DNA of 64,000 nucleotides. Origin: Sphaerisporangium perillae (GTDB lineage: Bacteria > Actinomycetota > Actinomycetes > Streptosporangiales > Streptosporangiaceae). Location: the NCBI RefSeq assembly GCF_023276435.1, contig NZ_JALLPO010000015.1, positions 1 to 64,000 on the forward strand, written 5' to 3'. Shown one piece after another: positions 1 to 53,130 of the stretch. The position numbers and the translations under genes were made by a program. The notes under the pieces are model-generated. The model saw only the letters and a list, made by a program, of their open reading frames with translations. It made no database searches and was not told where the DNA came from. Each line of letters begins with the position of its first letter. Position 1 is the stretch's first letter.

Positions 1-2
1 GC

Positions 3-326
3 GCCGAGCTCATCGACGAGCTCAAGCCCTACCTCCTGGAAGACCTGGGCGGGCACCCCTGGAGCTCCTGGATGTCGCAGGACCAGAGCACCACCCAGCG
101 CATGCCGGGGGCCATCTCCCGCTGGAGCGCCGGCAAGAACCTCGCGTTCGTCCCGCTGGACCCGAAACTGGTCGTCGAGGTCGCCTACGACCACATGGAG
201 GGCAACCGGTTCCGGCACACCGCCCAATTCCGGCGCTGGCGCACCGACCGCACCCCCGAGTCCTGCACCTACGAACAGCTGGAGACGCCCGTCGGCTACA
301 ACCTGGACGACATCCTGGCCCGCTGA
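3..326 (+). CDS. ATP-dependent DNA ligase, C-terminal part (5' end outside window)
   Basis: Only the last 107 residues are visible, and the frame is open at the window edge. The sequence matches the end of actinobacterial LigC-type ATP-dependent ligases: a GHPW segment, then LAFVPLDPKLVVEV, YDHMEGNRFRHTAQF and RRWRTDRTPESCTYEQLE, which close the OB-fold domain. Such enzymes seal nicks using an AMP-lysine intermediate. The adenylation domain is off-window, so I cannot say whether the gene is intact. Its last 320 bases recur almost unchanged around 1878-2201, where they form an orphan fragment. A perfect hairpin follows the stop codon. Confidence 0.75.
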   Translation, partial: AELIDELKPYLLEDLGGHPWSSWMSQDQSTTQRMPGAISRWSAGKNLAFVPLDPKLVVEVAYDHMEGNRFRHTAQFRRWRTDRTPESCTYEQLETPVGYNLDDILAR

Positions 327-355
327 GCGGCGTTCCGCCGGGCACGCACGGCGGA

Positions 356-382
356 AGGGACATGGGTCGTGCCCATGTCCCT
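356..382. terminator. Hairpin between convergent ligase and repeat-protein genes
   Basis: A perfect 11-bp stem (AGGGACATGGG / CCCATGTCCCT) with a 5-nt loop lies between two convergent stop codons. A related hairpin occupies the same place in the second cassette (2238-2264). There is no T tract, so a bidirectional actinomycete-type terminator is inferred. Confidence 0.6.
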
Positions 383-420
383 CCGTCCGCGGCCGGCTCA
401 CCCGAGCCCGGTGGCGCGGC

Positions 421-1206
421 TCAGTGCTCCACTGTCTGCGACTCCAGATCCGACTGCGGGGACTCGCCGATCTTTCCGGAGATGTTGCCCGACTCCTGCG
501 TCTGCTCGGACTCGGTGGCCTTGCCCAAGGTCCCGGTCTTCTCGGACTCGCCCATCTGACCGGAGGTACCGGTCTGCTCGATGTTGCCGGTCTCCTCGGG
601 AGTACCGGTCTGCTCGATGTTGCCGGTCTCCTCGGGAGTACCGGTCTGCTCGATGTTGCCGGTCTCCTCGGGAGTACCGGTCTGCTCGATGTTGCCGGAC
701 TGCTCGGACTCGCCCATCTGACCGGAGGTACCGGTCTCCTCCGACTCGCCCATCTGACCGGAAGTGCCCGTCTCCTCGGACTCGCCGGTCTGCTCAATGT
801 TGCCGGTCTCCTCGGGAGTACCGGTCTGCTCAATGTTGCCGGTCTCCTCGGGAGTACCGGTCTGCTCGATGTTGCCGGTCTCCTCAGACTCGCCGGTCTG
901 CTCGGTGGTGCCGGTCTCCTCAGACTCGCTCATCTGACCGGAAGTGCCCGTCTCCTCGGACTCGCCGGTCTTGCCTGAGATACCCGACTTCTCCGACTCG
1001 CCCATCTTGCTGGATTCGCCGTTTCCGGCCCCCCCGTTGTCGTCCTGGTCGCGCGGGACGGCGTGGACCGCCGCCGCGAGGCCGTGCCCGGCGGCGACCG
1101 CCGGCGCGGGGCCCGACGCCGCGGACGCCTGCGCGGGTCCGGAGGTCCAGAGCGAGACCGAGAGAAGCGCCGGACCGAGCAGTACGAGGGTTCGCTTGTC
1201 TGCCAT
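421..1206 (-). CDS. Secreted Glu/Thr/Gly-rich repeat protein (cassette 1)
   Basis: 261 aa with ATG at 1206, chosen because AAAGGAG lies just upstream; longer frames lack a ribosome site. Residues 1-30 form a signal peptide (MADKRT, a hydrophobic LVLLGPALLSVSLW core, then AQASA). After a short Ala/Pro linker, the rest is repeats of GNIEQTGTPEET and variants (GESEETGTSGQM), strongly acidic and free of Cys and aromatic residues. That composition suggests an extended or disordered extracellular protein. No family is recognised. The signal peptide resembles that of the protein at 2311-2853, but the repeats do not. A SARP-type operator lies about 100 bp upstream (1310-1338). Function unknown; a surface, sheath or matrix role is a guess. 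Confidence 0.75.
   Translation of the reverse strand: MADKRTLVLLGPALLSVSLWTSGPAQASAASGPAPAVAAGHGLAAAVHAVPRDQDDNGGAGNGESSKMGESEKSGISGKTGESEETGTSGQMSESEETGTTEQTGESEETGNIEQTGTPEETGNIEQTGTPEETGNIEQTGESEETGTSGQMGESEETGTSGQMGESEQSGNIEQTGTPEETGNIEQTGTPEETGNIEQTGTPEETGNIEQTGTSGQMGESEKTGTLGKATESEQTQESGNISGKIGESPQSDLESQTVEH
541..950. repeat. Coding tandem repeats, 36-bp period
   Basis: Within the repeat-protein gene a 36-bp unit (12 codons) starts at 569, 605, 641 and 677, and again at 785, 821, 857 and 893. The two blocks are separated by variant units. The period is a multiple of three, so copy-number change keeps the frame. Confidence 0.9.
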
Positions 1207-1309
1207 GGCCGACTCCTTTTCGTGTCGTGGCCATCCGCGATGGCCGTCGAGGACGGGCGGTCGCCCGTGGGGTCGAACCACATGCTTTCCGGGACCGCGC
1301 CACCTGGCC

Positions 1310-1338
1310 GTGACACCGACGTGACGCGAGGATGACAG
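1310..1338. promoter_or_regulatory. SARP-type operator, three heptamers at 11-bp spacing
   Basis: Heptamers GTGACAC (1310), GTGACGC (1321) and ATGACAG (1332) start exactly 11 bp apart. Direct heptamer repeats at 11-bp spacing are the known binding pattern of SARP activators. The site lies upstream of the minus-strand repeat-protein gene (start 1206). The same arrangement is found at 2950-2978. Confidence 0.65.
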
Positions 1339-1351
1339 GAGCGCCGTTTCA

Positions 1352-1845
1352 ACGGTGGGCGACCGCACGCAGGCTCGCTACAAGCTCGCTCACCAGCGGG
1401 GGTCGGGCGCAGGCCGAGCTCAGCGGACAGGAGGCGCTCGTAACGCTCGAAGCCGCGCAGCGCCTCGGCCTGGTTGCCGAGCATGCGGCGGGCCAAGGCG
1501 CGCGCCTCCTCGATGTCGACGCCGGCGTCCGGGCTCAGCCGGACCTCGCTCAGTGGTGCCGATGTCCAGGACCTGTCAGCCTGCGGCCTCCAGGCGCGCC
1601 GGCGCCGACCGCAGGCTCGCCTGGGCGCGCCGCTCGCGCCGGTCGGGCCGGTCGGGCCGGTCGGGCCGGTCGGGCCACAGAAAGCGTGCCCGCCAGCAGG
1701 GTCCGGGGCACCGCCTGGCCGCAGAGGGCGGCGAACGACACCAGACGTTCCGTGCCGCCCGAGACCGTCGCCCGCTCTCCTCCGGCCACCAGCCGGAAGC
1801 CCTCCATCACCGGCAGCGACGAGCGCGCGGGCGAGTGGTTCGAGA
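1352..1845 (-). pseudogene. Decayed SARP regulator copy
   Basis: This is a degraded relative of the intact SARP gene at 2986-3720. The N-terminal part (GFRLVAGGERATVSGG, LVSFAALCGQAVPRTLLAGTL) and the C-terminal part (GNQAEALRGFERYERLLSAELGLRPTP) are recognisable, but in different frames. Most of the BTAD region is missing: ARALARR joins directly to GNQAEAL. A run of four 9-bp repeats sits at the frame change. It occupies the same position relative to repeat gene 1 as the intact SARP does to repeat gene 2. Confidence 0.75.
1641..1676. repeat. Four tandem copies of GGTCGGGCC
   Basis: Perfect 9-bp units start at 1641, 1650, 1659 and 1668, inside the SARP pseudogene. The intact gene has a single comparable stretch at the matching place. 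Replication slippage after loss of selection is likely. Confidence 0.85.
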
Positions 1846-1859
1846 TGTTCGAGATGTTC

Positions 1860-2201
1860 GAGGGAGCGTGCCTCAGCGCCGAGCTCATCGACGAGCTCAA
1901 GCCCTACCTCCTGGAAGACCTGGGCGGGCACCCCTGGAGCTCCTGGATGTCGCAGGACCAGAGCACCACCCAGCGCATGCCGGGGGCCATCTCCCGCTGG
2001 AGCGCCGGCAAGAACCTCGCGTTCGTCCCGCTGGACCCGAAACTGGTCGTCGAGGTCGCCTACGACCACATGGAGGGCAACCGGTTCCGGCACACCGCCC
2101 AATTCCGGCGCTGGCGCACCGACCGCACCCCCGAGTCCTGCACCTACGAACAGCTGGAGACGCCCGTCGGCTACAACCTGGACGACATCCAGGCCCGCTG
2201 A
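1860..2201 (+). pseudogene. Orphan 3' fragment of ATP-dependent DNA ligase
   Basis: From about 1878 the sequence repeats bases 1-323 almost exactly. One visible change near the end gives Q for L in the last codons (DDIQAR against DDILAR). Upstream of about 1860 the frame runs into antisense SARP sequence, so no adenylation domain is present. This is a truncated duplicate and not a working ligase. Confidence 0.8.
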
Positions 2202-2237
2202 CCGAGCTCCGCCGCGAACGGCCCGAGGGCGCCGGAG

Positions 2238-2264
2238 GGGACATGGGCGAGGCGCCCATGTCCC
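2238..2264. terminator. Hairpin after ligase fragment
   Basis: A perfect 12-bp stem (GGGACATGGGCG / CGCCCATGTCCC) with a 3-nt loop lies between the ligase fragment and the convergent repeat-protein gene. It is the counterpart of the hairpin at 356-382. Confidence 0.6.
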
Positions 2265-2310
2265 TCGGCTCCGCGGGGAGCCCGCCGAGGTCCCGCGGAG
2301 CCACTCCGTC

Positions 2311-2853
2311 CTACCTCATCCCGGACCTGTCGCGGTCGAACCTGCCCCGCTCGGATCTGTCGCGGTCGAACCTGCCCCGCTCGGACCTGTCGCGGTCGAA
2401 CCTGCCCCGCTCGGACCTGTCGCGGTCGAACCTGCCCCGCTCGGATCTGTCACGGTCGGATCTGTCGCGGTCGAACCTGCCCCGCTCGGACCTGTCGCGG
2501 TCGAACCTGCCCCGCTCCGATCTGTCACGGTCGGACCTGTCGCGGTCGAACCTGCCCCGCTCCGATCTGTCACGGTCGGACCTGTCGCGGTCGAACCTGC
2601 CCCGCTCCGATCTGTCGCAGTCGCCGTAGCGCCTGCAGCCGTCGCCGCCGTCTGTGTAGTCCCCGGTGCTCCCGTTCGTGTACTCCGCGCGGGGCAGAAC
2701 GCGCAGGCCCGCCGGCGCGATCGTGGTGTGCCCGGCGCTGGTCACCGCCGTAGCGGGTCGTGGCGCCGAGGATGCCTGCGCGGCTCCCGCGGTTGCGATT
2801 GAGAGCGACAGGAGCGCCGGACCGAGAAGCATCGCGGATCGCTTGCCTACCAT
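2311..2853 (-). CDS. Secreted Arg/Asp-rich repeat protein (cassette 2)
   Basis: 180 aa with ATG at 2853, preceded by GAAAGGAG. Residues 1-30 are a signal peptide (MVGKRS, hydrophobic AMLLGPALLSLSIA, AQASS) clearly related to that of the 421-1206 protein. A middle segment contains YTNGSTGDYTDGGDGCRRYGDCDR with two Cys. Residues from about 80 onward are 5-residue units RSERG, RFDRD and RSDRD, giving a highly charged, zwitterionic tail. No family is recognised. The SARP gene lies directly upstream on the same strand, and a three-heptamer operator separates them. Conserved export signal with unrelated repeats in the two cassettes is the notable point. Confidence 0.75.
   Translation of the reverse strand: MVGKRSAMLLGPALLSLSIATAGAAQASSAPRPATAVTSAGHTTIAPAGLRVLPRAEYTNGSTGDYTDGGDGCRRYGDCDRSERGRFDRDRSDRDRSERGRFDRDRSDRDRSERGRFDRDRSERGRFDRDRSDRDRSERGRFDRDRSERGRFDRDRSERGRFDRDRSERGRFDRDRSGMR
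2325..2625. repeat. Coding 15/30-bp tandem repeats
   Basis: Units of 15 bp encode RSERG, RFDRD or RSDRD. They are mostly arranged as 30-bp pairs, with extra RSDRD units inserted at several points. All lengths are multiples of 15, so the frame is kept. Confidence 0.9.
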
Positions 2854-2949
2854 GGCCGACTCCTTTCGTCGTGGCCGCCGGGTGACGCCGTCCAGGGCGT
2901 CCGCCCGTGGGGTCGAACCACATGCTCTCCGGGACCGCGCCACCGCGCC

Positions 2950-2978
2950 GTGACGCGGGCGTGACAGGAGGATGACGG
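2950..2978. promoter_or_regulatory. SARP-type operator, three heptamers at 11-bp spacing
   Basis: GTGACGC (2950), GTGACAG (2961) and ATGACGG (2972) are spaced exactly 11 bp apart, matching 1310-1338. The downstream 50 bp toward the repeat-protein gene is also conserved between the two sites, including GGTGGCGCGGTCCCGG on the minus strand. The site lies between the SARP gene and its presumed target. Confidence 0.65.
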
Positions 2979-2985
2979 CGGCGGA

Positions 2986-3720
2986 TCAACGCTGAGCGAC
3001 GGCGCGCAGGCCGGCGACGAGATCGGTCACCAGCGGGGTCGGGCGCAGGCCCAGCTCGACCGAGAGGAGCCGCTCGTAGCGCTCGAAGTCGCGCAGCGCC
3101 TCGGCCTGGTTGCCCTCGGCCAGGTGGGCGCGGATCAGCGCCGCGTGCGCGCTCTCACGCAGAGGCTCGGCCCGTACGGCCACCCCAGCGGCGGCCACCG
3201 CGTCGGCGAACCGGCCCGCCTCGGTGAAGTCGTCGGCCAGTGCCTCCAGGGCGTGCAGGCGGAGCTGGTGCCACTCCTCGCCCTCGCGGACCACCCAGTC
3301 GTCGTACCAGCCGGGCAGCAGGTCGACGGAAAGGATCTCCACGGCCTCCGCACAGAGGTCATCTCCGGCCGTGTGCGTGCACGGGTCGAGCACGCGGCGG
3401 GCCAGCGCGCGCGCCTCGCCGATGTCGACCTCTGCGGACGGGCTCAGCCGTACCTCGGTGGTGCCGATGTCGAGGATCTGCCGGCCGGCGTCCTCAAGGC
3501 GCGCCAGCGCGGACCTCAGGCTCGCCTGCGCCCGCCGCTCGGGCCGGTCCGGCCACAGCGTGCCCGCCAACAGGGTCCGGGGCACCGCCTGGCCGCAGAG
3601 GGCGGCGAACGACACCAGACGTTCCGTGCCGCCCGAGACCGTCGCCTGCTCTCCTCCGGCCACCAGCCGGAAGCCGCCCAGAAGATCGACCCGCAGCGCG
3701 GGCCGCTCGCCGCTCTCCAT
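2986..3720 (-). CDS. SARP-family transcriptional activator (wHTH + BTAD)
   Basis: 244 aa. Residues about 8-95 form an OmpR-like winged helix (LRVDLLGGFRLV, then RTLLAGTLWPDRPERRAQASLRSALARLED). Residues about 96-240 form a bacterial transcriptional activator domain (VEILSVDLLPGWYDDWVV, HALEALADDFTEAGRF, RESAHAALIRAHLAEGNQAEALRDFERYERLLSVELGLRPTP). This is the minimal SARP layout with no ATPase or TPR extension. Family members bind 11-bp-phased direct heptamers next to the -10 region and recruit RNA polymerase. Such sites stand at 2950-2978 and 1310-1338, so the two secreted repeat-protein genes are the likely targets. A decayed copy lies at 1352-1845. Confidence 0.9.
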   Translation of the reverse strand: MESGERPALRVDLLGGFRLVAGGEQATVSGGTERLVSFAALCGQAVPRTLLAGTLWPDRPERRAQASLRSALARLEDAGRQILDIGTTEVRLSPSAEVDIGEARALARRVLDPCTHTAGDDLCAEAVEILSVDLLPGWYDDWVVREGEEWHQLRLHALEALADDFTEAGRFADAVAAAGVAVRAEPLRESAHAALIRAHLAEGNQAEALRDFERYERLLSVELGLRPTPLVTDLVAGLRAVAQR

Positions 3721-3847: not shown

Positions 3848-3891
3848 TGTCAGCTAATGCTGACAAACTGGCCGCGTCAGCTTATGCTGAC
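3848..3891. promoter_or_regulatory. Two palindromic operators before the HTH gene
   Basis: TGTCAGC-TAAT-GCTGACA (3848-3865) and GTCAGC-TTAT-GCTGAC (3876-3891) are perfect inverted repeats. Their centres are about 27 bp apart, and the second ends 3 bp before the ATG at 3895. Autoregulation by the small HTH protein is inferred. Confidence 0.7.
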
Positions 3892-3894
3892 AGC

Positions 3895-4134
3895 ATGAGC
3901 GCAGCGACCGAACTCGCCGCGGCCGCCGACAGCCGCGATCCCGCCACGGGCCTGGCCGCCGTGGCGGCCCTGCGCAGGCTCCTGGAAGAGCTGGAGGCCG
4001 CGCACGTCGGCAACGCCCGGGCACAGGGCTGGTCGTGGGAGGCCATCGCCGCCGCCCTCGGCGTCCGGCGCCAGACGGCGCACAGGAAGCACGCGCACCG
4101 CGTCATCGGCAACGCATCAGGGAGTGGGAGTTGA
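3895..4134 (+). CDS. Small helix-turn-helix protein, partner of Clp-N gene
   Basis: 79 aa. A helical N-terminus (residues 1-45) is followed by a helix-turn-helix at about 48-68 (GWSWEAIAAALGVRRQTAHRKH). Short proteins of this kind are often encoded just before a Clp N-domain gene in actinobacteria, as here. The stop codon is supplied by the right end of the inserted element at 4131. Removing the element restores AGA-TGA, so the original protein ended GSGR and its stop overlapped the next ATG (ATGA). Two palindromes overlap the promoter region. The HTH itself is undamaged, so the protein is probably still functional. Confidence 0.75.
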   Translation: MSAATELAAAADSRDPATGLAAVAALRRLLEELEAAHVGNARAQGWSWEAIAAALGVRRQTAHRKHAHRVIGNASGSGS

Positions 4135-29474: not shown

Positions 29475-30677
29475 GTGGAACGGTGTCGGATGGTGTGGAG
29501 TCGAATCGGTGTTCGCATCCGGTCGATCGTGCCTAAAGTACGAACCGTGGCACGAACTGTGAAGCGGGCGTTGAAGTTCCGCTTCTACCCGACGTCCGGG
29601 CAGGCTGAGGAGCTTGCCCGCACGTTCGGTTGCGTCCGCTTGGTGTACAACAAGGCTCTGGAGGAACGTACCCGCGCCTACAGGCTGCACGGCAAAGGGC
29701 TTTCTTACGAGGAGTCCTCGGCGGCGCTCACCGGCTGGAAGCGCACCGAAGAGTTGGGTTTCCTCGGCGAGGTGTCGTCGGTTCCGTTGCAGCAGGCGCT
29801 GCGGCATCTGCAGGCGGGGTTTGCGAACTTCTTCGCCAAGCGGGCGCGCTACCCGGTGTTCAAGTCGCGGAAGAGGTCGCGGGCGGCGGCGGAGTACACC
29901 CGTTCGGGGTTCCGTTACCGGAACGGTGAGCTGACGCTGGCGAAGCTGGACGGCCCGCTGAACATCGTGTGGTCGCGTCCGCTGCCCGAGGGGGCGCAGC
30001 CGTCGACGGTGACTGTCTCTCGCGACGCGGCGGGCCGGTGGTTTGTGGCCATCCTCTGCGAGGAGACGATCGGCCGGTTGGACCCGGTGGGTGAGTCGGT
30101 CGGCATCGACGCAGGGATCAGCGCGCTGGTCACGCTGTCGCGCCCGATCGACGGTCTGACCGACGGCGACGGCAAGGTCGCCAACCCCCGGCACGAGCGG
30201 GCCGAGCGGCGCCGACTGGCCAAGGCGCAGCGGGCGCTGGCCCGCAAAGCGAAAGGCAGCGCCAACCGCGCGAAGGCCAGACTGCGGGTGGCGAAGGTGT
30301 ATGCGCGGGTCGCCGATCGGCGCCGCGACTTTCTGCACAAGCTCACCACACGGCTTGTTCACGATAACCAAGTGATCGCCGTGGAAGACCTGAGCGTGCG
30401 GAACATGGTGAAGAACCGGTCGCTGGCCCACGCCATCTCCGACGCCGCGTGGCGGGAGCTCCGCTCGATGCTGGAGTACAAAACGGCGTGGTACGGGCGG
30501 GAGCTGGTCGTGGTCGACCGGTGGTTCCCCTCCTCCAAGCTGTGCTCGGTGTGCGGGGTCATCGCCGAGTCGTTGCCGCTTGATGTCCGCAGTTGGCAGT
30601 GTGGCTGCGGCGCGGTCCATGATCGGGATGTCAACGCGGCGAAGAACATCCTCGCTGCCGGGCTGGCAGAGAGGTGA
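29475..30677 (+). CDS. tnpB: TnpB RNA-guided nuclease
   Basis: 400 aa as drawn from 29475; GTG starts at 29529 or 29547 (before KRALKFRFYPT) are as likely. The N-terminal WED/REC part includes FGCVRLVYNKALEERTRAY. The RuvC triad is intact: Asp in GESVGIDAGISALV, Glu in VIAVEDLSVRNM, Asp in VHDRDVNAAKNIL. The zinc ribbon is CSVCGVIAES with CGCG. TnpB proteins cut DNA next to a target motif under guidance of RNA from the element's right end, and they favour element retention. The catalytic residues suggest activity. Confidence 0.92.
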   Translation: MERCRMVWSRIGVRIRSIVPKVRTVARTVKRALKFRFYPTSGQAEELARTFGCVRLVYNKALEERTRAYRLHGKGLSYEESSAALTGWKRTEELGFLGEVSSVPLQQALRHLQAGFANFFAKRARYPVFKSRKRSRAAAEYTRSGFRYRNGELTLAKLDGPLNIVWSRPLPEGAQPSTVTVSRDAAGRWFVAILCEETIGRLDPVGESVGIDAGISALVTLSRPIDGLTDGDGKVANPRHERAERRRLAKAQRALARKAKGSANRAKARLRVAKVYARVADRRRDFLHKLTTRLVHDNQVIAVEDLSVRNMVKNRSLAHAISDAAWRELRSMLEYKTAWYGRELVVVDRWFPSSKLCSVCGVIAESLPLDVRSWQCGCGAVHDRDVNAAKNILAAGLAER

Positions 30678-48069: not shown

Positions 48070-50583
48070 TCACAGCCGGGGATCCACGGGCTCGGACTCC
48101 AGGGCGAGGACGGCGAAGACCGCCTCGTGGATCCGCCAGAGCGGCTCGCCGCCGGCCAGCCGCGCCAGCGACTCCATGCCGAGAGCGTGCTCGCGCAGCG
48201 CCAGCGACCGCTTCCTGCCCAGGAAACGGCCGCGCAGCGCGTCCAGGCTCTCGGTGTAGTCGGGACCGTAGATGATGCGCAGGTACTCCCGCCCGCGCAC
48301 CTTGACGCCCGGCTGCACGCGCGCGGCCACCGGATGTACGGGCTTGACGACCATCCCCTCGCCCCCGGCCTCGGTGAGCGACGTCCACCACTCGGTGGCC
48401 GCCGCCCGCGACTCCTCGGAGGCGGGTGAGACGAACACGTGCCGCGTCGGGGCGACCAGGTCGCCCTCCAGCCGCGCGAGCGTGGACAGATGCCAGGTGT
48501 GCGGCTCCAGCGCCGCCGTCGCCCGCCCCTCCACGGCGAGGATCTGGAACGGCGCGAACCGTATGCCCGAAAGGCCCGACACCGGCCAGCAGTACCGCGC
48601 GTAGGCGTCCCTGAACCGGGCGGCGTTGTCCAGGCGCCGCCGGGTCCGGTCCAGCAGCTCGCCCACCGCGAGCCCCCGCCCGGCCGCCGCCGAGAGCACC
48701 GCCGCAGCCTGCGGAAGCGCGGCGCGGGCCGCCGCGCCGACGGAGGCGTACTGCTCGCGGATCAGCCCGCCCGCCTTCGCCGACCAGGGCAGCAGCTCGC
48801 CGTCGAGCACCATCCAGTCGGTGCCCAGCTCCTCCCACAGACCCGCCTCGGACACCGCCGCCACGAGCCGGTCCACCAGCCCGGCGGTCAGCTCCGGGTC
48901 GTCGAAGAACGGGCGCCCGGTGCGGGTGTGCACGGTGCCCCGGCCGCCGTCCGCGACCCCGAACCGCGCCGCCGCGGCCTGTGGAGTGCGCGCGAGTACG
49001 GCGACGGCACGCGAGCCCATGTGCTTCTCCTCGCACACCAGCTCCGCCACACCGGCCCGCTGGAACTCCTCGAACGCCTCGGCGGGGTGCTCAAGGTAGC
49101 CCTCCAGCGACGAGGTCTCCGGCGGTGCCATGGTCGGCGGCAGGTAGACGAGCCAGCGCGGGTCCACGGCGAACCGGCTCATGATCTCCAGCGCGGCGGC
49201 GGAGTTCTCCTCACGGATCTTCACCTTGCCGCCGGCGCGCGTCTCGACGTACCGGGTGCCCTGGACGTCACCGATGTCCAGCAGCCCGGGATCGCGAGCC
49301 GGGGCGGGCGCGAGCGGGCGGATCGGCTCATACCAGACCTGGTGCGCCGGGACCGACACCAGCTCGCGTTCCGGGTAGCGCAGCGCGGTCAGGCTCCCGC
49401 CGAACACGCAGCCGGTGTCCACGCAGATCGTGTTGTTGACCCACTCGGCCTCGGGGACGGGCGTGTGGCCGTACACGACCATCGCGCGGCCCCGGTAGTC
49501 CTTCGCCCACGGGTAACGCACCGGCAGGCCGTACTCGTCGGTCTCCCCCGTCGTGTCGCCGTAGAGGGCGAAGGAGCGCACCCGCCCGGAGGCGCGACCG
49601 TGGAAGGCCTCCTTCAGGCCCGCGTGCGCCACGACCAGCCGGCCGTCGTCGAGCTGATAGTGGCTGATCAGCCCGTCCATGAAGGCCCGGGCGGCCTCGC
49701 GGAACTCCTCCGGCTCGCGGGCGAGCTGCTCCAGGGACCGTTCGAGCCCGTGCGCCACGGTGACGTTGCGGCCGTTCAGCGCCCGGACGAGCTTGTTCTC
49801 GTGGTTGCCGCAGACGCACAGCGCCGTCCCCGCCGCGACCATCCCCATGACCAGCCGCAGGACGCCCGGCGAGTCGGGCCCGCGGTCGACCAGGTCGCCG
49901 ACGAACAGGGCCGTCCTGCCCTCCGGGTGGGCGGCCCCGACCGGCCGGCCGGCCTCGTCGCGGCGCAGCTCCCAGCCCAGCTCGACGAGCAGCCCTTCGA
50001 GCTCGGCGCGGCAGCCGTGCACGTCGCCGATCACGTCGAACGGGCCGGTCAGCTCGCGCAGGTCGGTCCACGCCTTCTCGTAGGTGATCGTGGCCTGGTC
50101 GATCTCCGCGCCGCGGAGCACGTGCACCCGCCGGAACCCTTCCTTGCTGATCCTCGACAGGGATCGCCGCAGGTCCTTGCGCTGCCGGGTGATCACATGG
50201 GGGCCGAAGTCCCGCTCGGGACGCAGGGCGTTGCGGGCGACCGCGACGTCCTCGGGCACGTCGAGCACGATCGCCTCCACGAGCACGTCGTGGCTCTTGC
50301 CGAGTTCGACGAGCTTCTTGCGCGCCTCCCACTGGACGTTCGTGGCGTCCACGACCGTGAAAAGGCCGCGCCGCAGGCGGGTGCCGACGATGTAGTGCAG
50401 CACGTCGAAGGCGTCCGGCGTCGCCTCCTGGTCGTTCTCGTCGTCGGCGACCAGGCCCCGGCAGAAGTCCGAGGAGATCACCTGGGTCGGCAGGAAGTGC
50501 TCGCGGGCGAACGTCGACTTGCCGCTCCCCGACACCCCTACCAGCAGGACCAGCGACAGCACCGGCAGGCCGATCTCAGTCAC
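48070..50583 (-). CDS. pnkP: Polynucleotide kinase-phosphatase-ligase-like RNA repair enzyme
   Basis: 837 aa with three domains. The kinase (about 1-165) has the P-loop VGVSGSGKST and VVDATNVQWEARKKLVELG. The metallophosphatase (about 180-430) has FDVIGDVHGCRAELE, GDLVDRGPDS, CGNHENKL and RLVVAHAGL. The adenylyltransferase (about 470-837) has the nucleotide-binding Lys near 520 in VCEEKHMGSRAV and the later KVRGREYLRIIYGPDY. Bacterial Pnkp heals cleaved RNA ends and, with Hen1, seals and methylates the break. The gene overlaps hen1 by 8 bp. Confidence 0.95.
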   Translation of the reverse strand: MTEIGLPVLSLVLLVGVSGSGKSTFAREHFLPTQVISSDFCRGLVADDENDQEATPDAFDVLHYIVGTRLRRGLFTVVDATNVQWEARKKLVELGKSHDVLVEAIVLDVPEDVAVARNALRPERDFGPHVITRQRKDLRRSLSRISKEGFRRVHVLRGAEIDQATITYEKAWTDLRELTGPFDVIGDVHGCRAELEGLLVELGWELRRDEAGRPVGAAHPEGRTALFVGDLVDRGPDSPGVLRLVMGMVAAGTALCVCGNHENKLVRALNGRNVTVAHGLERSLEQLAREPEEFREAARAFMDGLISHYQLDDGRLVVAHAGLKEAFHGRASGRVRSFALYGDTTGETDEYGLPVRYPWAKDYRGRAMVVYGHTPVPEAEWVNNTICVDTGCVFGGSLTALRYPERELVSVPAHQVWYEPIRPLAPAPARDPGLLDIGDVQGTRYVETRAGGKVKIREENSAAALEIMSRFAVDPRWLVYLPPTMAPPETSSLEGYLEHPAEAFEEFQRAGVAELVCEEKHMGSRAVAVLARTPQAAAARFGVADGGRGTVHTRTGRPFFDDPELTAGLVDRLVAAVSEAGLWEELGTDWMVLDGELLPWSAKAGGLIREQYASVGAAARAALPQAAAVLSAAAGRGLAVGELLDRTRRRLDNAARFRDAYARYCWPVSGLSGIRFAPFQILAVEGRATAALEPHTWHLSTLARLEGDLVAPTRHVFVSPASEESRAAATEWWTSLTEAGGEGMVVKPVHPVAARVQPGVKVRGREYLRIIYGPDYTESLDALRGRFLGRKRSLALREHALGMESLARLAGGEPLWRIHEAVFAVLALESEPVDPRL

Positions 50584-52141
50584 GGCCGAACACCCCCATC
50601 TGCGTCGGCGGGCCCAGCTCGGGGTCCTCTTCGCCGATCGGCCGGTACGTCACGCGGTAGCCGTACTCCCGGCAGACGCCCTCCGCCCACGCGGCGAATT
50701 CCGCGCGGGTCCACTCGAAGCGGTGGTCGGGGTGCCGCATTCCGGTCAAGGACTCGTAGCGGACGTTGTACTCGACGTTCGGCGTCGTCACCACCACCAC
50801 GCGGGGCCGGGCCGTGCCGAAGACCACCCGCTCGAGGGCGGGCAGCCGGGGCGGGTCGACGTGCTCGACGACCTCCATCAGCACGGCGGCGTCGTACCCG
50901 GCGAACCGCTCGTCGGTGTAGGTCAGGGCTCCCTGGAACAGCTCCAGCCTGGCCCTGCGCGCCTCCGGCATCCGGTCGAGCCTCAGGCGGCGGGCGGCCA
51001 GGGCCAGGGCGCGGGCGGAGACGTCCACGCCGGTGACCTTGGTGATCTCGGGGTTCGCCAGCAGCTCGCCGACGAGCTGCCCGGAGCCGCAGCCGAGGTC
51101 GATGACGGTGCGCGCGCCGGCCTCGGCCAGCGCCGCGACGACCGCCTCCCTGCGCCGCAGGCTGAGCGAGGGCCGCGCCCCCGCCTCCGCGCCTGGACGC
51201 TCCGCTTCCTCTCGTCCGGAACGCTCCGCGGGGTCCTGGGCGGCACGATCGGGCGCACCCGGTGCGGACTGCTCCACGGCCTCCGTGCCGGACGGCTCCA
51301 GGGCCTCCGTGCCGGAAGGTGCTACGGCGTCCGGGGCCGAGGGTGGTGGGGCGGGATCGCCCGGCTCCTCCTCGACGGGGGGTTCCAGGGTCTCCTCGAC
51401 GTCGTCGCCCAGCTCGGCCAGGCGGGCGAACGCCGCCCGCGTCAGGCTTCCCCGGCGGCCGAGGTAGCGGCGGGTGATCCAGGCCCGCTCCGGGTGGGCG
51501 GCCAGCCAGCCCTCCCCCGCGCGGATCAGCTTGTCGACCTCGTCGGAGGCCATCCAGTAGTGCTTGGCGTCGTCGAGCACCGGAAGCATGACGTAGAGCT
51601 GGTTCAGCGCGTCGGCCAGCCGCATCGATCCGCGCAGAGTGAGCCCCACGTACCGGGAGTCACCCCATTCGGGGAATCCCTCGTCCAGGGGGACGGCCCG
51701 TGCCTCCACCTGCCAGCCGAGGGGCTCGAACAGCCGGTGCGCCCGCTCGGGGCCGCCACGGCAGGGCAGCGAGGGCAGCGTGATCTCCAGCTCGATCGTC
51801 CCGGCGGCCAGCTCCGGCCTGGCGGCGCAGCGTCCCGTCCGCGCGGTCCTGAAGACGTCCGCGAGCGCCACGGCCAGCATCGAGGACCCTGCGTACGGGC
51901 GGTCGTTGACGTACTGGCTCAGGCTGAAGTCGGGCGAGGTCCGGCCGCGCGAGCGCACCAGCCGGACCGGGTCCACCTCGAGCAGGAGCGCGGCCGTGCA
52001 GCGTCCCTCGGTGGCCTCGGGATACAGCACCCGCGCCACGCCGAACGACTGGCCGAACTCCTGGATCCGGTCAGGGTGCTTGTGGAGCAGGAAGCCGAGA
52101 TCGGTGGCCGGCCGCGTGGTCGTCGAGATGGTCAGCAGCAC
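50576..52141 (-). CDS. hen1: 3'-terminal RNA ribose 2'-O-methyltransferase
   Basis: 521 aa from GTG at 52141 (MLLTISTTTRPATDLGFLLHKHPDRIQEF, the family start). The N-terminal half (about 1-240) is the Pnkp ligase-activating domain. A Glu/Pro/Ser-rich linker of about 75 residues contains repeats of PSGTEALE. The methyltransferase (about 315-521) has DLGCGSGQLV, the metal-binding AVLMEVVEHVDPPRLPAL and HRFEWTRAEFAAWA. It marks the 3' end at a repaired break so that the same cut cannot recur. First gene of the operon with pnkP. Confidence 0.95.
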   Translation of the reverse strand: MLLTISTTTRPATDLGFLLHKHPDRIQEFGQSFGVARVLYPEATEGRCTAALLLEVDPVRLVRSRGRTSPDFSLSQYVNDRPYAGSSMLAVALADVFRTARTGRCAARPELAAGTIELEITLPSLPCRGGPERAHRLFEPLGWQVEARAVPLDEGFPEWGDSRYVGLTLRGSMRLADALNQLYVMLPVLDDAKHYWMASDEVDKLIRAGEGWLAAHPERAWITRRYLGRRGSLTRAAFARLAELGDDVEETLEPPVEEEPGDPAPPPSAPDAVAPSGTEALEPSGTEAVEQSAPGAPDRAAQDPAERSGREEAERPGAEAGARPSLSLRRREAVVAALAEAGARTVIDLGCGSGQLVGELLANPEITKVTGVDVSARALALAARRLRLDRMPEARRARLELFQGALTYTDERFAGYDAAVLMEVVEHVDPPRLPALERVVFGTARPRVVVVTTPNVEYNVRYESLTGMRHPDHRFEWTRAEFAAWAEGVCREYGYRVTYRPIGEEDPELGPPTQMGVFGRD

Positions 52142-52206
52142 GCTGCCCGATCTTTCCCTATTGGTGGTGAACCGGCCACCGATTTGACGTGCCCGGGGGC
52201 GCGAGG

Positions 52207-53130
52207 TCAGACGTGCGGCATGACCTCCGCGGCGATCAGCTCGAGGTGGTCGAGGTCCGACATGTCGAGAACCTGGAGGTACATGCGCTCGCAACCGGCC
52301 TTCCCGAACCGGCCGATCTTGTCGGTGACCTCCTCCGGCGTGCCGGCCAGGCCGTTCGCCCGCAGCTCGGCCACCTCGCGGCCGATCGCCGCCGCCCGCC
52401 GGGAGAGCTCGGCCTCGTCGGCGCCGACGCACACCGTCTGCGCGGCGGAAAGGACGACCGGGCCGCGGCCGGCGGCCTCACACGCCTCCCGCACCCGCCC
52501 GTAGGCGGCGATGGTGGCCTCCAGGCCGTGGAACGGGACGTTGTACTCGTCGGCGAACCTCGCGGCCAGCCGGGGCGTGCGCTTGGCGCCGGTCCCACCG
52601 ATGATCACCGGCGGGCGCGGGCTCTGGGCGGGCTTGGGCAGCGCCGGGGAGTCCGCGACGCGGTAGTAGGCGCCCTCGAAGGAGAAGGTCTCCCCCGGCG
52701 CCGCGGTCCACAGTCCCGTGATGATCTCCAGCTGCTCCTCGAAGCGGGCGAACCGCTCGCCGAGCGGCGGGAAGGGGATGCCGTACGCCTTGTGCTCGGC
52801 GTCGAACCAGCCTGTGCCGAACCCGAACTCGATCCGCCCCCCGCTCATCTGGTCCACCTGGGCGACGCTGATCGCCAGCGGGCCGGGCAGCCGGAAGGTC
52901 GCCGCCGTGACGAGCGTGCCGAGGCGGATCGTCCGCGTCTCGCGGGCGAGCGCCGCCAGCGTCACCCAGGAGTCGGTCGGTCCCGGCTCCGGGTTCCCCT
53001 CACCCATGGTCAGGTAGTGGTCGGAACGGAAGAAAGCGTCGAATCCGAGCCGCTCAGCGGCCTGGGCCACGTGGAGTTGGTCCTCGTAGCTGGCTCCGTA
53101 CTGCGGCTCGGTGAAGATCCTTAATCTCAT
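52207..53130 (-). CDS. F420-dependent LLM-class oxidoreductase
   Basis: 307 aa from ATG at 53130. It is a luciferase-like TIM barrel: MRLRIFTEPQYGASYEDQLHVAQAAERLGFDAFFRSDHYLTMG, VTLAALARETRTIRLGTLVTAATFRLPGPLAISVAQVDQMSGGRIEFGFGTGWFDAEHKAYGIPFP, and VIIGGTGAKRTPRLAARFADEYNVPF. This subgroup uses coenzyme F420, usual in actinobacteria. Substrate unknown. A longer frame upstream lacks family similarity. It lies 66 bp before hen1 on the same strand and may be co-transcribed. Confidence 0.88.
   Translation of the reverse strand: MRLRIFTEPQYGASYEDQLHVAQAAERLGFDAFFRSDHYLTMGEGNPEPGPTDSWVTLAALARETRTIRLGTLVTAATFRLPGPLAISVAQVDQMSGGRIEFGFGTGWFDAEHKAYGIPFPPLGERFARFEEQLEIITGLWTAAPGETFSFEGAYYRVADSPALPKPAQSPRPPVIIGGTGAKRTPRLAARFADEYNVPFHGLEATIAAYGRVREACEAAGRGPVVLSAAQTVCVGADEAELSRRAAAIGREVAELRANGLAGTPEEVTDKIGRFGKAGCERMYLQVLDMSDLDHLELIAAEVMPHV

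Follow-up and report, generated by a model that had tools for sequence, protein, structure and literature searches.

A small SARP with a conserved heptamer operator as the likely dedicated activator of exported-protein genes in Sphaerisporangium perillae

Introduction

Streptomyces antibiotic regulatory proteins (SARPs) are searched for as a means of unlocking silent antibiotic clusters. The stretch of Sphaerisporangium perillae DNA analysed here (64,000 nucleotides, positions 1 to 64,000 of contig NZ_JALLPO010000015.1; hereafter the window) carries near its start a small SARP gene that stands beside two genes for signal-peptide repeat proteins, which raises the question of what this regulator controls. 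The window starts at base 1 of its contig (C28), in a genome of 9.3 Mb and 120 contigs. We consider it likely that the small SARP is a dedicated activator of the neighbouring exported-protein genes and not of an antibiotic cluster. The evidence comes from the duplicated locus itself, from an operator shared with other genomes, and from the genes that accompany the SARP lineage elsewhere.

Architecture of the duplicated locus

Bases 1-3720 are a tandem duplication, and the two-cassette layout given in the initial annotation stands. The unit consists of a ligase 3' end, a hairpin, a signal-peptide repeat gene and a SARP gene. Read from right to left, cassette 2 presents the intact SARP, the operator, repeat gene 2, a hairpin and a convergent ligase 3' end, and cassette 1 shows the same order with a decayed SARP (Table 1).

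Table 1. Features of the duplicated locus, in window coordinates.
Feature	Position	Strand	Basis and remarks
ATP-dependent DNA ligase 3' end	1-326	+	Named by eye from the KWDGFR motif; convergent with repeat gene 1
Hairpin separating the ligase 3' end from convergent repeat gene 1	349-389	.	RNA folding z -4.7 (-), -5.4 (+)
Repeat gene 1, 261 aa: related signal peptide and Glu/Thr/Gly-rich 6-aa repeats (GNIEQT/GTPEET)	421-1206	-	ORF, alignment
Operator/promoter of repeat gene 1	1282-1337	-	Heptamers 1331-1337, 1320-1326, 1309-1315, 1298-1304; 10-bp gap; -10-like AAGCAT 1282-1287
Decayed SARP remnant, cassette 1	1348-1801	-	5' end lost, ~270 nt missing internally, frame broken
Ligase fragment between cassettes, duplication scar	1801-2201	+	Internal piece 1801-1853 plus 3' end 1876-2201
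Hairpin separating the ligase fragment from repeat gene 2	2230-2271	.	RNA folding z -3.5 (-), -3.2 (+)
Repeat gene 2, 180 aa: signal peptide and Arg/Asp-rich 5-aa repeats (RGRFD/RDRSE)	2311-2853	-	GAAAGGAG ribosome site upstream
Operator/promoter of repeat gene 2	2922-2977	-	Heptamers 2971-2977, 2960-2966, 2949-2955, 2938-2944; 10-bp gap; -10-like GAGCAT 2922-2927
Intact 244-aa SARP (AfsR-like winged helix and BTAD), proposed activator of both repeat genes	2986-3720	-	Pfam, phmmer, AlphaFold2/Foldseek

The first ligase 3' end, taken alone, gave no Pfam match. Window base 1 is a contig end, and the remainder of the ligase was found on contig C82, the last 127 nt of which are window bases 1-127. 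Cassette 1 therefore adjoins the full ligase, and the duplication has left its scar as the ligase piece that separates the two cassettes. The first 300 nt of the two ligase ends are identical; a conversion restricted to the ligase part is our guess at the cause. Outside the ligase the cassettes are 78-81% identical where alignable, so the duplication is not very recent. A ligase end adjoins the cassette in all five Sphaerisporangium relatives that carry this SARP (L031-L035), and the hairpin at the end of repeat gene 1 is likely a bidirectional terminator.

Alternatively, only cassette 2 works, and cassette 1 is decaying but has not yet lost its promoter and open reading frame (ORF). Its SARP is already broken, and the 300 identical nucleotides of the ligase copies would fit a recent event. 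We judge this unlikely, given the divergence of the non-ligase parts and the state of cassette 1, which retains a signal peptide, a ribosome site, the 261-amino-acid (aa) ORF with a third-position GC content of 0.86, and an operator that scores 41.7 on the matrix described below. Two functional promoters are the preferred reading.

The repeats of the two window proteins are unrelated, and their likeness is confined to the N-termini (52% identity over residues 1-65). Among the units of repeat gene 2, one type (10 copies) showed 10 synonymous against 3 other changes and another (8 copies) showed none, both being small counts. No Pfam family scored above its cutoff for either protein.

The intact SARP and its remnant

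The 244-aa SARP carries a C-terminal BTAD domain (PF03704, E 1.4e-18, 68 bits against a cutoff of 22) and aligns to AfsR across residues 3-234 in phmmer. Its N-terminal OmpR/PhoB-type winged helix was recognised by structure and by the full-length alignment to AfsR and EmbR. The AlphaFold2 model reached a mean predicted local distance difference test (pLDDT) of 83 and a predicted template modelling score of 0.72, and its best Foldseek matches were AfsR in transcription complexes (E 2e-9) and EmbR (E 6e-7), with modest TM-scores of ~0.5. The remnant in cassette 1 matches the intact protein at residues 11-73, 57-90 (with a stop) and 203-230 only.

A search of the genome with the SARP returned 13 match rows, four of them from this locus, and the next full-length relatives were merely 27-33% identical. 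A plasmid search with a Streptomyces SARP yielded six records, every one below 60% identity.

The operator and its specificity

Each repeat gene of the window is preceded by four heptamers at 11-bp phase, then 10 bp, then a -10-like hexamer of the form xAxxxT. The initial annotation had counted three heptamers per site; the fourth phased unit, GGTGGCG in both cassettes, and the hexamer extend that description, whereas the 11-bp phasing and the places given for it hold, with the register used here shifted by one base. Heptameric direct repeats at 11-bp spacing beside -35/-10 elements, the target feature of the SARP type, are thus present by sequence, and units of 11 bp are given for SARP sites in a passage of PMC5930380.

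Twenty aligned intergenic regions share a single element of three to four GTCACG-type units at 11-bp steps, 10 bp and a hexamer with A at its second and T at its sixth position, one locus (L045) fitting with a 9-bp gap. A 44-bp matrix was built from 20 sites, whose leave-one-out scores ranged from 19.1 to 48.1. On the window, the matrix scored 45.5 at the site of repeat gene 2 (42.4 when left out of training) and 41.7 at that of repeat gene 1, which was absent from training; the next-best scores were found at the same two places on the other strand (16.1 and 9.2), followed by 8.7. A first-order Markov simulation of 10 Mb (one strand) produced no position above 20 and a maximum of 18.4. In the 51 loci outside the training clade, scores above 20 occurred at 21 of 648,386 positions, distributed over 20 loci that include unrelated secreted repeat genes of Streptomyces, mostly on the opposite strand, and secreted proteins of Catellatospora. 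Read-through from the SARP cannot explain the site, because most Streptomyces sites precede repeat genes on the strand opposite the SARP. We likewise rejected the idea that the heptamers are kept merely by overall intergenic similarity: in Streptomyces the gene, the repeats and usually the strand differ while the site is the same.

The operator might nevertheless belong to another regulator, for instance AfsR or a different SARP, with the adjacent SARP linked but separate. The genome does encode other SARP-like proteins, the direct repeats resemble the sites of many SARPs, and two Sphaerisporangium loci with 44%-identical SARPs (L037 and L038) reach 17.7 and 19.9. However, the matrix never exceeded 8 at the nine other SARP loci of the genome and reached at most 12.4 at nine distant SARP loci of its family relatives. 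The site and the SARP lineage also co-occur across genomes, the one close ortholog without a partner lacking the site as well, and the AfsR unit given in a passage of the review PMC10972967, CGTT(T/C)ATCGNN, differs. Ownership by another regulator is therefore improbable in our estimation, and the adjacent SARP is preferred as the protein that recognises the site.

Partner genes in Streptosporangiaceae

Among 297 genomes of the family, 45 matched the SARP at E<=1e-30, and 21 places reached at least 275 bits. Co-occurrence in related genomes, whose absence had been set beforehand as a refuting test, proved strong: in 20 of the 21 close orthologs, a signal-peptide ORF lies 89-192 nt downstream on the same strand (start codons chosen by hand). 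The remaining ortholog (L047) had no partner within 1.5 kb and no site above 15. The same downstream, same-strand signal-peptide partner was present at every one of the 15 named Streptosporangiaceae loci whose SARP is 57% or more identical, 13 of them being the same SARPs as in the set of 21.

Seventeen of the 20 partners have a short two-unit core with a two-Cys helical hairpin (GYxxGF..DC..GYxxGFHSC), one of them (L040) without the second Cys. In S. perillae and two further genomes (G000, G001 and G009), Arg/Asp/Ser/Glu-rich or similar repeats stand in place of this core. An alignment of 20 hairpin proteins, comprising 16 of the 17 two-unit partners (L040 left out), two from Catellatospora and two more from Nonomuraea, revealed seven invariant Gly/Cys positions past the signal peptide. 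The AlphaFold2 model of a hairpin partner showed a disordered N-terminus and helices at 60-82 and 96-112 (block pLDDT 85-97), for which Foldseek found no fold match in the PDB. No Pfam match below E 0.0028 was obtained for the 20 hairpin proteins, and the families matched do not point to chaplins, rodlins or curli-like fibres.

The exported proteins could instead be antimicrobial peptides, toxins or precursors resembling ribosomally synthesised and post-translationally modified peptides (RiPPs), which would leave the SARP within specialised metabolism. SARPs usually control products of that kind, and the hairpin proteins are small and secreted-looking. One of the 20 hairpin members does match a cyclophane-RiPP model at 2e-5; the match is found in that member only, in a region which we take to be a Gly-rich tail. 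No non-ribosomal peptide synthetase (NRPS) or polyketide synthase (PKS) was present in the 20 ORFs scanned of the 42 predicted in the window with at least 200 aa, which leans against a biosynthetic gene cluster around the SARP, although modification or immunity genes may lie beside the SARPs of other loci. We give this explanation little credence and continue with exported proteins outside antibiotic control.

S. fuscum (L036) has a further target on a different contig, preceded by the same site (score 27.1). In two Sphaerisporangium loci, a second operator lies upstream of the SARP (L031 at 7235 (+), 27.4; L032 at 6462 (+), 28.9) and faces a divergent secreted-looking protein of ~100 aa (GGYESLTxCQSA..); the window has no such site there.

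Streptomyces and Catellatospora loci

Streptomyces SARPs of 50-57% identity adjoin secreted repeat genes that have a common signal peptide of their own (IRxRIPRLIGAS..) and repeat units such as NQGNQAIGNTGG, NQNNQATGNAGG or NVLQQGAQTG. The repeat gene is on the strand opposite the SARP in L077, L080, L081, L084, L085, L090, L100 and L176 (convergent) and in L095 (upstream), and on the same strand in L121 (upstream) and in L180 and L105 (downstream). The operator starts 89-95 nt 5' of the start codon and keeps the 10-bp gap to a -10-like hexamer, the exception being L105 with two clear units only. Families with GATTTGATT-like chains have weaker sites (L179, 16.7; L195, 23.7; L180, 20.4 and 16.9; L196, 10.3). 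Eight Streptomyces repeat proteins gave no Pfam family above cutoff; a Lysostaphin_N match of one such protein, just under the cutoff, was set aside as a product of repeat composition. In Catellatospora, a two-Cys hairpin protein is divergent to the SARP, and the operator is present (34.6 and 30.8).

Other genes follow the operator in further loci. In L082, L101, L106 and L107, related Streptomyces SARPs accompany an operator 5' of an N-acetylmuramoyl-L-alanine amidase-type gene (PF01510, tested in L106), the site of L101 scoring only 12.6. In L093, L104, L108 and L111, the operator overlaps the SARP 3' end and precedes a NACHT-type protein of ~960 aa (Pfam tested in L104); L108, from Streptosporangium nondiastaticum, clusters with Streptomyces in the SARP tree.

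Genome-wide site searches

The exact three-heptamer core occurs at two places in the 9.3-Mb genome, and both are the cassette promoters. Together with the distance of the nearest full-length SARP relatives and with the two other genomes that carry a second same-site target on another contig, this supports the earlier proposal that one SARP serves both promoters. At up to two mismatches, 11 rows were obtained against two for the reversed-pattern control. A large regulon in this genome was rejected, as the two-mismatch sites on C33, C45, C47, C73, C79 and C99 were read as lacking an in-step -10-like hexamer, the one on C73 having a gene after it.

In eight other genomes, a search at up to one mismatch returned 15 rows and none for the controls, and the expected site was recovered in all eight. 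Among the remaining seven rows, one falls on an expected array, one lies 5' of a second repeat gene (L151) and one 5' of another secreted protein (L152). Streptomyces G297 is the second genome with an additional repeat gene and site on another contig.

The SARP was detected at E<=1e-55 in 20 of 392 Streptomyces genomes. A strict Streptomyces site, its pattern derived partly from G297, which is one of the positives, occurred six times in five genomes, all of them within the 20 that bear the SARP (hypergeometric 2e-7; reversed-pattern control 0). Five of the six matches face repeat genes, and the sixth (G545) faces a NACHT-type gene. In G388, the site and the SARP are on different contigs, and the site precedes a repeat gene that is truncated where its contig stops. 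The other 15 SARP-bearing genomes lack the strict site, several carrying looser ones.

The SARP tree and loci that do not fit

The tree was prepared from 121 loci: L129 was dropped for a short match, 23 of the remaining 120 proteins were exact duplicates and four distant SARPs were left out, giving 93 proteins. With a site cut of 19, which was chosen after the scores were seen, 48 of the 51 operator-positive loci fell in one clade of 65 members (support 100/96). Such a site was present in 48 of 70 SARPs with at least 50% identity, compared with 3 of 23 below it. By reading, 36 of the 51 operator-positive loci face an exported protein, namely 22 Streptosporangiaceae loci, two Catellatospora loci, 11 Streptomyces repeat genes and L102. 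The low-complexity partners fall on separate branches of the tree, which is consistent with their independent origin; group sizes are affected by the labels, since the low-complexity group was made to include L102, which has a secreted, non-repetitive target, as well as L105 and L179, which have sites scoring below 19.

Several observations weigh against a dedicated activator of exported proteins. At the other 15 operator-positive loci, the gene faced was not judged to be exported or the target is unclear: three of Amidase_2 type, four of ~110 aa, four of NACHT type, one membrane protein and three weak sites in distant loci (Pfam was run on a single representative of each of the amidase, ~110-aa and NACHT types, the ~110-aa type giving no match). 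Among the three weak distant sites, that of L038 is upstream of the SARP itself and that of L116 may face an exported protein. The lineage is therefore not tied to secretion in every branch. Twenty-two of the 70 SARPs with at least 50% identity have no site of 19 or more, some because a contig ends, the DNA is masked or the gene lies outside the sequence covered, and others being true misses, and the SARP is absent from 5 of 11 Sphaerisporangium genomes. Four of the seven further rows in the eight-genome search have no convincing target, namely an exact core match in G297 (L155) and three one-mismatch sites in other genomes. A second type of Streptomyces repeat gene (MRKLQKxxITA.., NQANQAVG-like repeats; L077, L080, L081, L085 and L090) has no operator. 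The Pfam winged-helix model gave no match at E<=1 on the 244-aa SARP. The gap to the -10 hexamer is 10 bp in the register used here, L045 requiring 9, compared with the 8 bp given for AfsR in a passage of PMC7040171. Finally, signal peptides were called by a home-made rule plus eye, and the role proposed below for the repeat proteins is read from composition only.

Proposed mechanism and comparison with known systems

The SARP most likely binds the GTCACG-type heptamers, which are arrayed head to tail at 11-bp spacing, on a single face of the DNA and in a manner predicted to be cooperative. The last heptamer would lie near the -35 position, 10 bp before the -10 hexamer, and RNA polymerase would be recruited as by AfsR, judging from homology. 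As the tandem duplication appears to have copied both target and regulator and the second regulator has decayed, one SARP would be left to serve two promoters. Its predicted targets are signal-peptide proteins, built as a two-Cys hairpin in most relatives and as low-complexity repeats in some Sphaerisporangium and in Streptomyces. They may be material of the cell surface or extracellular matrix, with a conserved switch in front of a fast-evolving protein body; this matrix role is our best guess from the signal peptide, the repetition and the rapid change.

We lean slightly towards a broader interpretation, in which this SARP lineage stands outside antibiotic control, and regulator and operator form a conserved plug-in switch whose cargo gene has repeatedly been swapped or rebuilt, the main branch serving the dedicated expression of fast-evolving extracellular material. 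The cargo would comprise two-Cys hairpins, unrelated repeat chains that arose separately in Sphaerisporangium and Streptomyces, and, on side branches, an amidase or a NACHT protein.

The N-terminal SARP half of AfsR from Streptomyces coelicolor (8hvr, 8k60) resembles the window SARP in its winged helix and BTAD over the full length and in direct repeats upstream of the -10 element. The window SARP differs in being small and lacking the C-terminal parts of AfsR, in its GTCACG-type heptamer, and in its predicted local exported-protein targets as opposed to the global role of AfsR. The cluster-situated small SARPs ActII-ORF4, DnrI and RedD have the same size and domains, and passages of PMC10972967 and PMC7040171 describe the DnrI and ActII-ORF4 sites as three heptamers. 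Here, in contrast, the cargo looks like secreted repeat proteins, and the scanned window ORFs include no NRPS or PKS.

EmbR, which carries an extra FHA domain and for which we know of no repeat-protein target, is the next-best fold match after AfsR. It provides the known precedent for a cell-envelope link of a SARP: passages of PMC9239209 assign EmbR of Mycobacterium a cell-envelope and not an antibiotic role. Unlike the window SARP, EmbR has a kinase gene in its operon and a broad regulon.

Chaplins and rodlins are secreted structural proteins of differentiating actinomycetes and are controlled by other regulators. Compared with these and with curli-like fibre proteins, the partners described here showed no family-specific domain above the Pfam cutoff.

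Among the open-access matches listed, with subscription journals mostly outside the scope, no title or abstract describes SARP control of secreted repeat proteins. The suggestion in the initial annotation that a SARP for extracellular low-complexity proteins would be a new use thus met no precedent there, but it was too narrow, as a SARP-operator-cargo unit of wider scope includes the low-complexity partners as one of its forms. BTAD genes are noted near extracellular contractile injection system loci in a passage of PMC8213781, and the AfsR-like protein of PMC3878966 has no SARP part and is not relevant to the window SARP.

If the proposed role is correct, a conserved SARP branch for exported structural-looking proteins would change the annotation of orphan SARPs. 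The predicted operator, GTCACG-N5-GTCACG-N5-GTSRYG-N10-xAxxxT, would find targets across genera, and the loci would provide a natural series in which one promoter is retained while the protein behind it is replaced.

Other features of the window

Two near-identical palindromes, GTCAGCT(A/T)ATGCTGACA, lie 27 bp apart at 3849-3892, just 5' of a 79-aa helix-turn-helix-like gene (3895-4134; HTH_23 E 5.6e-5, just under the cutoff), and are possibly the operator of that gene itself. An IS605 OrfB/TnpB-like gene was located at 29475-30677 (+), and a Pnkp and Hen1 RNA-repair gene pair at 48073-52432 (-).

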